A DNA stretch of 38,943 nucleotides from an uncultured Brachyspira sp. (GTDB taxonomy: Bacteria > Spirochaetota > Brachyspiria > Brachyspirales > Brachyspiraceae), in NCBI GenBank assembly GCA_944392715.1, contig CALXXQ010000151.1, positions 1 to 38,943 on the forward strand, written 5' to 3'. Every line of letters starts with the position of its first letter. Position 1 is the first letter of the stretch. The position numbers were made by a program, and so were the translations under genes. This document shows, piece after piece, positions 34,515 to 38,010 of the stretch. Under the pieces are notes generated by a model. It was not told the DNA's origin, did not search any database, and worked only from the letters and a program-made list of their open reading frames with translations.

Positions 34515-36326
34515 ATGGCTAGAAGTATTATAAATATAGTTAATATATCTAAAAGATTTGTTCATAAAGTACTGCTTGATAATGTTAACCTTTTAATAGA
34601 AGAAAAATCTAAGATAGGAATGATAGGAAGAAACGGAGCAGGTAAAACTACTCTTTTAAAAATTCTTATGGGGCTTGAAGAGGCAGATGACGGAGAGATA
34701 ATATTTTCTGATGATGTTAGGATAGGTTATTTGCGTCAGCAGGGAGATTTTGATGATAATGAAAAGGTAATTGATTATCTTACTAGAGTTACTAATAAAG
34801 AATCTTGGAAATGTTCTAAAATAGCAAGCAGATTTGGAATAGATCATATAAAAGTTAATTATAATTTAGGAAATTTATCAAGCGGATATAGAATGAGAGT
34901 TAAGCTCGCTGAAATGATGCTTTATGAACCTAATTTTCTTATACTCGATGAACCTTCAAACTTCTTGGATTTAAATACATTAATAGATTTAGAAAATTTT
35001 TTAATGGATTATAATGGCGGATTTTTAATAGTTTCGCATGATAGAGAATTTTTAAAAACAACTTGTGAAAAAACTATAGAAATGGAAAATGGTAAGATAA
35101 CATACTTTCCTGGCAATATAGAAGATTATTTTGAATACAAAGAAGAAAAAGAATATACAATAAAAAAATATAATAAGAATATAGAAGAGAGAAAGGCACA
35201 TTTAGAAAGATTTGTTGAGAGATTTAGATATAAAGCTACTAAAGCAAAAGCTGTTCAATCTAGAATTAAGCAGATAGAGAAATTAAAAACAATAGAAATT
35301 ACTCATCCAGCCAAAAATGTAAGAATAAAACTTCCAGAGGTTCCAGAAAAAAAAGGTTTTGCTATTATATCTGATGATTTATCTGTAGGATATGGTGAAA
35401 AAATAGTTGCAGATAGCGGAAGAATAGAAATACCTAGAGGAAGTAGGGTAGCTGTACTTGGTCAAAATGGAGAAGGTAAAACAACTTTTTTAAGAACTAT
35501 AGCAGGAAGAATCAAGCCTGTATCTGGTACTTATAATTATTCTTATGGTATAAAGATAGCTTATTTCGGAGAGGATACATATAAAAATGTAACTTCAAAT
35601 GATACTGTGCTTTCTTATTTGAAAAAAAATGCTAAGCAAGGATTACTTACTCAGGAGCTTTTAACACTTTTAGGAAGCTTCTTATTTTCTGGAGATGATG
35701 TTAACAAAGATGTTAAAGTTTTAAGCGGGGGAGAGATGGCTAGACTTTCACTTCTTGCAGCTATTACTCAATGTGCAGATGTGCTTATTTTGGATGAGCC
35801 TACTAACCATTTAGATTTTGAAACTGTTGAATCTTTGGCTAATTCTTTAAGAGATTATGGTGGAACTATATTTTTCACTTCGCATGACAGAACTTTTGCT
35901 AGTTTGCTTGCTGATACCATAATAGAAGTAAAAAATAAAAAACTTTCTCTTTATCCTGGAGATTATGAAGCTTATGTTTATAGGGTTCGTCTTGATGCTT
36001 TGGAAGAGGAAGAAAAAGAATTAGAGTATCAGGATAAAAAAAATAAAGAAAATGTAAATATTGAAGAAAAAAATAATAATTATGAAGAGAGAAAAAAAAT
36101 TAGAAGCAGGCTTTCTAAATGTGAATCTTTAATGAAGAAGTATGAAAAAGAAATAGAAGATTATAAAAAAGAAGAGGCTGAAATATTAAAATTTTTTGAG
36201 ACATCTTCTAGTTATGATGATGATAAAAGCAAGCGTTTATTGGAAGTAAAGAAATTAATTGAAAAAACAGAAAATGAATGGCTTTTAGTTACTGAAGAAA
36301 TAGATAATATAAGAACTATGTTATGA
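34515..36326 (+). CDS. ABC-F family ATPase (translation factor type)
   Basis: A 603-residue soluble protein with two ABC domains and no membrane segment. Domain 1: Walker A GRNGAGKTT (38-46), signature NLSSGYRMR and LILDEPSNFLDL. Linker (about 190-285) is charged and helical, as in the P-site tRNA interaction motif. Domain 2: Walker A GQNGEGKTT (316-324), signature LSGGE (403-407) and LILDEPTNHLDF. A C-terminal coiled coil spans about 500-603. ABC-F proteins act on ribosomes with problem peptides or drugs. The Uup/YdiF-like group fits best, but I cannot assign the subfamily. No SD precedes the ATG. Confidence 0.92.
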   Translation: MARSIINIVNISKRFVHKVLLDNVNLLIEEKSKIGMIGRNGAGKTTLLKILMGLEEADDGEIIFSDDVRIGYLRQQGDFDDNEKVIDYLTRVTNKESWKCSKIASRFGIDHIKVNYNLGNLSSGYRMRVKLAEMMLYEPNFLILDEPSNFLDLNTLIDLENFLMDYNGGFLIVSHDREFLKTTCEKTIEMENGKITYFPGNIEDYFEYKEEKEYTIKKYNKNIEERKAHLERFVERFRYKATKAKAVQSRIKQIEKLKTIEITHPAKNVRIKLPEVPEKKGFAIISDDLSVGYGEKIVADSGRIEIPRGSRVAVLGQNGEGKTTFLRTIAGRIKPVSGTYNYSYGIKIAYFGEDTYKNVTSNDTVLSYLKKNAKQGLLTQELLTLLGSFLFSGDDVNKDVKVLSGGEMARLSLLAAITQCADVLILDEPTNHLDFETVESLANSLRDYGGTIFFTSHDRTFASLLADTIIEVKNKKLSLYPGDYEAYVYRVRLDALEEEEKELEYQDKKNKENVNIEEKNNNYEERKKIRSRLSKCESLMKKYEKEIEDYKKEEAEILKFFETSSSYDDDKSKRLLEVKKLIEKTENEWLLVTEEIDNIRTML

Positions 36327-36351
36327 ATATATTTATTAAAGGAGAAAATAA

Positions 36352-37932
36352 ATGAGGATTTTTAAGAACGGTAAAATTTATTCTATGGATAAAAATGACA
36401 GTATTTATGAATCTGTTGCAGTTGAAAATGGAAGAATAGCTTTTGCTGGAACTAATGATGAAGTATTAAAAAAGTATTCTGATTGTGATGATATAATTGA
36501 TTTAGAAGGAAAAACAGTTTTACCAGGATTTAATGACAGCTGCGTGCGTTTTGTAGAGTATGCCCGCTTTAATACTATGCTTAATTTAAGCGAATGCAAA
36601 TCTATAAAAGAAGTAATAGATTTAGCAAAGGATGCCAAAAAACATGAAGGCTGGGTTATAGGCTGGGGTTGGAATCAAGATTATTTTGAAGAAAAAAGAA
36701 TGCTTACAAAAAATGATTTAGATAATATATCTAGTGAATACCCTGTTGCTTTTAGAAGATGCTGCGGTGAAATGATAGTTGCTAATAGTAAGGCACTTGA
36801 GATATGCGGAATTGATGAGAAAATGAAATCTGATAGTATAGATTTTGAGAATGGTCTTATAAGTTCTAAAGATATGATTTTAATATTGTCTAAAATAAAA
36901 TCATTGGAAATAGATACTTTAAAATCAATAATATTAGATACTCAGGAAGCTTTTTTCAAAATGGGTATTACTTCTATTCAAACAGATGATTTAAGAAGTC
37001 TTCCAGATTTTGATTATAGAAAAATTATAGATGCATATCAGAAATTACATAGAGAGAAAAAATTAAAGTTAAGAGTATGCGAACAGGCTCAATTTATAAA
37101 TAAAAAAGATATAGATGATTTCAGACAATATTATTATTATCAATATATTAATGATGATAGATTTAAAGTAGCACGCATAAAGCTTATTATAGACGGAGGT
37201 ATAGGTTCTAGAACAGCACTTTTACAAGAAGATTATAATGATGCTAAAGGCTTTAGAGGTGTAACTCAATATAAGCAGGAAGAGCTTGATGAATTAGTAG
37301 AATATGCTAATAGCTTGGATTATTCTTTGGCTATACAGGCTACAGGAGACGGTGCTATAGATATGGCTTTAAAAGCAATAGAAAAAATAAAGGATACCAA
37401 AGATTTTAAATATAGAAGAAACGGATTAGTTCATTGTCAGATAACTGATAAAAAATTATTTGAAAGAATGAAAGAACTTAATGTAGGAATATATTATCAG
37501 CCAATATTCCTTCATTATGATATGCATATAGTTGAAGATAGGGTTGGAAATGAAAAGGCTTCTACTAGTTATGCTTATAAAACTGCCAAAGATATGGGAG
37601 TTCATATTGGATTTGGTTCATCTGGTCCTGTTGATGGTATTAGTGTTATGGAAGGAATACATTGTGCTGTTAATAGAGAAGATTTAAATGGATGGCCGAA
37701 ATCTGGATGGATGCCTCAGGAGAAACTTAGTGTTAAAGATGCTGTTTATCTATATACTATGGGAAGTGCTTATATGTCATCAGAAGATAATATTAAAGGT
37801 AGTATTGAAGAAGATAAATTAGCTGATTTTGTGGTTTTAGATAAAAATATATTTGAAGTAGATACAAATGAAATAAAAAATATTAAGGTATTAAAAACTA
37901 TTATTGACGGAGATATAGTTTATAGTGCCTAA
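36352..37932 (+). CDS. YtcJ-like amidohydrolase (family 3) with degenerate metal site
   Basis: A 526-residue amidohydrolase-fold protein: the N-terminal beta sandwich (FKNGKIYSMD, AVENGRIAFAG, LEGKTVLPGFNDS), a barrel with KLIIDGGIGSRTALL, and the C-terminal sandwich ending DGDIVYSA. The family's metal-binding H-x-H after FNDS is C64-V-R66 here. The usual H-A-x-G-D is Q329-A-T-G-D, and the usual S-D-x-P is S423-S424-G-P. H361 (LVHCQ) and the barrel lysine remain. The reading frame is intact with a good SD (AAAGGAG), so it appears expressed. Either a pseudoenzyme or a changed chemistry; see findings. Confidence 0.85.
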   Translation: MRIFKNGKIYSMDKNDSIYESVAVENGRIAFAGTNDEVLKKYSDCDDIIDLEGKTVLPGFNDSCVRFVEYARFNTMLNLSECKSIKEVIDLAKDAKKHEGWVIGWGWNQDYFEEKRMLTKNDLDNISSEYPVAFRRCCGEMIVANSKALEICGIDEKMKSDSIDFENGLISSKDMILILSKIKSLEIDTLKSIILDTQEAFFKMGITSIQTDDLRSLPDFDYRKIIDAYQKLHREKKLKLRVCEQAQFINKKDIDDFRQYYYYQYINDDRFKVARIKLIIDGGIGSRTALLQEDYNDAKGFRGVTQYKQEELDELVEYANSLDYSLAIQATGDGAIDMALKAIEKIKDTKDFKYRRNGLVHCQITDKKLFERMKELNVGIYYQPIFLHYDMHIVEDRVGNEKASTSYAYKTAKDMGVHIGFGSSGPVDGISVMEGIHCAVNREDLNGWPKSGWMPQEKLSVKDAVYLYTMGSAYMSSEDNIKGSIEEDKLADFVVLDKNIFEVDTNEIKNIKVLKTIIDGDIVYSA

Positions 37933-37967: not shown

Positions 37968-38010
37968 AAAGGATTTGGTAAATATTTATCAAGTCCTTTT
38001 TTATTTTTTT
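37968..38010 (+). terminator. Terminator after the amidohydrolase gene
   Basis: A 10-bp stem, 37968-37977 (AAAGGATTTG) with 37990-37999 (CAAGTCCTTT), containing one T-G pair, followed by a long T run. Confidence 0.85.

Follow-up and report, generated by a model that had tools for sequence, protein, structure and literature searches.

In BwBSH1 of Bilophila, a member of the Amidohydro_3 family (PF07969), replacement by alanine of any one of the six metal ligands inactivates the enzyme, and so does replacement of a conserved histidine, His196, that has been proposed to polarise the amide carbonyl (PMC13081902). Other proteins with the fold of the amidohydrolase superfamily have no hydrolytic role. 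The CRMP/dihydropyrimidinase-like proteins, with two of the six metal residues left, serve in non-hydrolytic signalling (PMC4051505), and the pseudo-dihydroorotase of Pseudomonas aeruginosa is an inactive chain of this superfamily that is needed by its partner, ATCase (PMC7053772). In the part of the literature that was searched, neither a metal-less PF07969 lineage nor pseudoenzymes in Brachyspira had been described before. Here we consider a gene in a window of 38,943 nucleotides from an uncultured Brachyspira sp. (contig CALXXQ010000151.1), which an earlier note had described as an intact amidohydrolase deprived of most of its metal ligands.

Results

Gene, family and fold

The gene occupies positions 36352 to 37932 of the forward strand, with an unbroken frame of 526 codons from the ATG at 36352 to the stop codon that ends at 37932. 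Just 5' of the ATG is the Shine-Dalgarno region ttaaaggag (36337 to 36345, forward strand; core AAAGGAG), and a purine-rich Shine-Dalgarno sequence precedes the gene in nearly all orthologues. No signal peptide is seen in the 526-residue protein. In a profile search residues 47-524 matched PF07969 with an E value of 6.9e-84 and 283 bits, against a cut-off of 29.7, and the profile was covered end to end (positions 1-472 of 472). The AlphaFold2 model, built from an input alignment of 21 sequences, is confident (pLDDT 85, pTM 0.87), and its top Foldseek matches are 3icj and 3igh (TM 0.80-0.82 by target length), uncharacterised hydrolases of Pyrococcus that are also the nearest solved sequences. 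The model thus predicts the barrel and beta-sandwich fold of these two structures, and profile and fold together place the protein in PF07969 by descent. The sole long stretch with pLDDT below 50, residues 278-304, comes right after the barrel lysine and lies beside the former metal site. A search for a more specific name gave none, as no NCBIfam model reaches its cut-off.

Directly upstream, across a gap of 25 nt, is a gene for an ABC-F family ATPase (34515 to 36326, forward strand), itself preceded by murD. The ABC-F and amidohydrolase genes are paired in every Brachyspira locus read, with gaps of 16-57 nt. A terminator-like hairpin with a T tail (37968 to 37999, forward strand) closes what is likely a two-gene unit; the next gene past it runs on the opposite strand and belongs to the phosphatidate cytidylyltransferase family. 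The ABC-F neighbour was also considered as a named resistance factor and this was rejected, since no NCBIfam model reached its cut-off.

The former metal site

Residues were placed at the motifs HxH, HAxGD, H and S/T-D-x-P by alignment to 3icj, 3igh and about 110 homologues. At the six metal positions (H64, H66, K277, H329, H361 and D424) this copy has C, R, K, Q, H and S. Both histidines of HxH are replaced, by C64 (codon 36541 to 36543) and R66 (36547 to 36549); the histidine of HAxGD is Q329 (37336 to 37338) and the catalytic aspartate is S424 (37621 to 37623), all on the forward strand, as are the codons given below. The barrel lysine, which is carboxylated in active members and kept in all, is K277 (37180 to 37182), and H361 (37432 to 37434) is also in place. 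The reading in the earlier note of N-D-S-C64-V-R66, Q329, H361 and S424 at the catalytic motifs is therefore borne out by structure and homologues alike, and it was right that the barrel lysine, H361, the Shine-Dalgarno sequence and the frame, free of stops and frameshifts, are kept. It missed two further changes. A histidine found at position 140 in all the ligand-intact homologues compared is E140 here (36769 to 36771), and a conserved glutamate is S172 (36865 to 36867).

The first of these changes may bear on catalysis. His140 is present in every compared sequence that has the complete set HHKHHD, whereas among those with an incomplete set just one has kept it; it is also present in 3icj and 3igh. 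We infer that it is the counterpart of His196 of BwBSH1, an assignment made from motif position and conservation.

Conservation within the genus

Full-length orthologues, 81-91% identical and none with a stop, are present in 23 of 26 Brachyspira genomes. HxH, His329 and Asp424 are absent from all 23, so that of the features of a functional binuclear metal amidohydrolase the H-x-H pair, the histidine of HAxGD and the catalytic aspartate are missing and the bridging lysine is retained. The earlier note had reasoned that HxH and S-D in close relatives would mark this copy as simply decaying. This is not what is observed, since the motifs survive solely in homologues that are more distant, those of fusobacteria and Bacillota. 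It had also asked whether C64, R66, Q329 and S424 are conserved. Q329 is fixed in all 23 orthologues, as are E140, S172, K277 and T331, but the other three vary: position 64 is C, S or N, position 66 is R or N, and position 424 is S or A. Position 361 varies as well, with H in 10 orthologues (this copy included), Y in 10 and N in 3. The fixation of E140, K277 and Q329 suggests that these residues answer a retained structural or functional need.

Pairwise omega among the Brachyspira orthologues (Nei-Gojobori) is 0.02-0.18, with a median of 0.10. Computed over one shared set of genome pairs, median omega comes to 0.107 here, 0.098 in murD and 0.058 in the ABC-F gene. The resemblance to murD implies that the gene is not merely decaying. 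With 38 ligand-intact homologues as the reference, 68 positions are conserved to 95% or more, and 46 of these show no change in any of the 23 Brachyspira proteins. Many of the conserved motifs survive as well, including GWNQDYF, DDG/IDG, QPIFLHYDMH and AVNREDL. The metal ligands are enriched among the positions that changed in some or all Brachyspira (5 of 6, compared with 17 of the 62 others; Fisher P = 0.012). The proposal in the earlier note that there has been selection for a non-hydrolytic role gains support from the loss in 23 of 23 orthologues, their intact frames and the low median omega. By these comparisons the protein would qualify as a pseudoenzyme, the catalytic motif having been lost while strong purifying selection keeps the gene.

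There is a hint that the protein is made in quantity. An "Amidohydrolase 3" of B. pilosicoli, D8IAM3, with a theoretical mass of 60.6 kDa, was reported in a band from strain OLA9 by immunoproteomics and mass spectrometry (PMC5415613). By computation the pilosicoli-type orthologues of our protein have a mass of 60.5-60.6 kDa, and their metal-intact paralogue one of about 63 kDa. This suggests that the band contained the pseudoenzyme, the match being one of name and mass, with one further paralogue left out of the comparison. The genome that carries the gene studied here also encodes a paralogue, L002 (G000:C128:8920-10512), that is 30% identical and in which the six metal ligands are complete; a lipoprotein-like leader is present in the pilosicoli-type orthologues of L002.

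Ancestry

The search for homologues covered 98 genomes of a single fusobacterial class, along with 391 and 395 genomes from two Bacillota classes that were sampled. As its sister the Brachyspira clade has, with support of 100/100, fusobacterial Amidohydro_3 proteins (L065-L070) of 46-50% identity. The sister proteins are of equal length and share the motifs GWNQD, QPIFLDYD and AVNRxD, but unlike the Brachyspira proteins they possess all six ligands (HHKHHD) and His140. The stem branch is 0.53 long on the Brachyspira side versus 0.20 on the fusobacterial side. As read from the tree, the likely history is a transfer between gut bacteria followed by a single loss on the Brachyspira stem. Among the homologues from these fusobacterial and Bacillota classes that align with the subfamily, no metal-less form was seen outside the spirochaetes. 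More distant fusobacterial paralogues (L094_3, L075_2 and L077_2) have odd ligand sets at the aligned positions (NHFSHE, HHLYHD); these secondary ORFs may represent further altered metal sites or misalignment.

In two fusobacterial genomes (L184, 5966-9832; L185, 1235-5055) an intact Amidohydro_3 gene is the middle member of an operon-like trio, flanked by a Peptidase C26 gene and an AGCS sodium/amino-acid symporter gene. The Peptidase C26 neighbour resembles a gamma-glutamyl-GABA hydrolase (gamma-glutamyl hydrolase-like). From these neighbours, the substrate of the parental enzyme was probably an amide of an amino acid.

A second spirochaete group

Other spirochaetes (two families, coded f5 and f24) encode proteins of about 28% identity that form a clade of their own with a graded loss of ligands. 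Their sets run from fully intact, HHKHHD (L158), through HHKQHD (L159), HNKQFD (L029), HNKQYD (L161), HRSQYN (L027), HQAHHN (L156) and HHAHQN (L155), to the fully stripped SKGAGN (L025). The hypothesis that all metal-less spirochaete proteins arose only once is rejected by 367 log-likelihood units (AU test, p-AU = 2.8e-110), for a constraint group that was defined after its sequences had been seen. The metal centre of Amidohydro_3 was therefore lost at least twice within the phylum. Replacement of His329 by Gln is found throughout the Brachyspira clade and in most proteins of the second group. In three genomes (L187, L188 and L189) members of the second group have as neighbours an EF-G gene and a gene that, by eye, resembles radical SAM. 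One might speculate that spirochaetes have repeatedly and independently made metal-free Amidohydro_3 proteins by a similar path, which would imply a shared, selected function that is non-hydrolytic or metal-independent and is possibly tied to the flanking translation factors (ABC-F in one case, EF-G in the other), but we regard this generalisation as doubtful.

Discussion

Our preferred interpretation, to which we give a probability of about 0.7, is that the gene encodes a genus-wide pseudoenzyme that works, free of metal, by binding a ligand or regulating a partner. The ancestor would have been an Amidohydro_3 enzyme of the type still intact in fusobacteria, which entered, or stayed in, the main Brachyspira lineage. 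Its binuclear centre (HxH, the HAxGD histidine and the catalytic aspartate), together with His140, would have been lost once, before the Brachyspira species diverged, with the beta/alpha barrel and its lysine retained. Judged from its residues, the protein very probably binds no metal and carries out no classical hydrolysis. The pseudoenzyme is most likely cytosolic, and hydrolysis by metal-activated water should be impossible for it. As a best guess, the old pocket may bind a small amide or amino-acid-derived ligand, the protein may hold a partner, or both. Given the likely co-transcription with the ABC-F factor, the ABC-F pathway is the first place to look, although the link may amount to co-transcription and nothing else.

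The alternative that fares best is that the pocket has been re-tooled for metal-independent catalysis by way of E140, K277, Q329 and D333. The amidohydrolase superfamily does include metal-independent members, such as LigI. The five residues fixed throughout the genus (E140, S172, K277, Q329 and T331) are not drifting, and the remaining pocket motifs are kept. However, four neighbouring positions that were once ligands drift freely, and no known metal-free catalytic motif is matched. We therefore consider such an enzyme unlikely, while treating it as the foremost competitor.

Considerably less probable is a reduced or new metal site, either a single metal with carboxylated K277, H361 and other residues as its ligands or a set that includes C64, as the earlier note had suggested. 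K277 is indeed kept, and so is H361 in this copy. Within the genus, however, positions 64, 66, 361 and 424 all vary, which speaks against a metal site involving any of them and hence against one built on C64, which is very unlikely to exist as a conserved site. Furthermore, a screen of all genus-invariant H, C, D and E residues revealed no new His/Cys cluster, and E140 is the only new acidic residue in an active-site motif at a family-invariant position.

Decay toward loss of the gene is highly improbable and, for the genus as a whole, refuted. It would account for the missing catalytic residues and for the absence of the gene from the deep-branching genomes G009 and G021, but all 23 frames are intact, omega is near 0.1, and the Shine-Dalgarno sequence and operon are maintained. 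MurD identity is down to 62% in G009 and 74% in G021, and in G021 scpA follows the ABC-F gene in place of the amidohydrolase; these absences are better explained by later acquisition than by decay. The third genome that lacks the gene, G006, is incomplete, and murD was likewise not found there. An error of sequencing or alignment is the least probable explanation of all and is refuted, for even though the source assembly is fragmented (214 contigs, 86% complete), named isolates whose complete genomes were assembled independently have the same residues or substitutes.

Whichever Brachyspira genome is annotated automatically, this protein will be labelled a metal-dependent hydrolase, a name that is very probably wrong. 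The lineage also offers a clean case in which to follow the fate of a barrel hydrolase after metal loss, with an intact sister clade, one loss on the stem and strong constraint thereafter, and the second spirochaete group adds a series of intermediates.

How does this protein compare with known systems? With 3icj and 3igh it shares the fold, and these remain its best matches in both sequence and structure, but they have the metal ligands. BwBSH1 belongs to the same family, but it is an active, zinc-dependent and secreted bile salt hydrolase of 101 kDa with a C-terminal domain (PMC13081902). The Brachyspira proteins lack four or five of the six ligands as well as the histidine, and the one studied here is 526 residues long. 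Identity as a MetalloBSH, which has a dinuclear site, taurine-binding residues and a C-terminal domain, was considered and rejected, as the site is incomplete and the protein has this shorter length. The CRMPs differ in belonging to Amidohydro_1, in being eukaryotic and in having lost the lysine, and they are not closely related. The Pseudomonas pseudo-dihydroorotase is likewise of another family and its partner, ATCase, has been identified, while a partner in Brachyspira is hypothetical. Pseudo-amidohydrolases in these other families show that proteins of this kind are already known; it is the Brachyspira lineage that is apparently undescribed.
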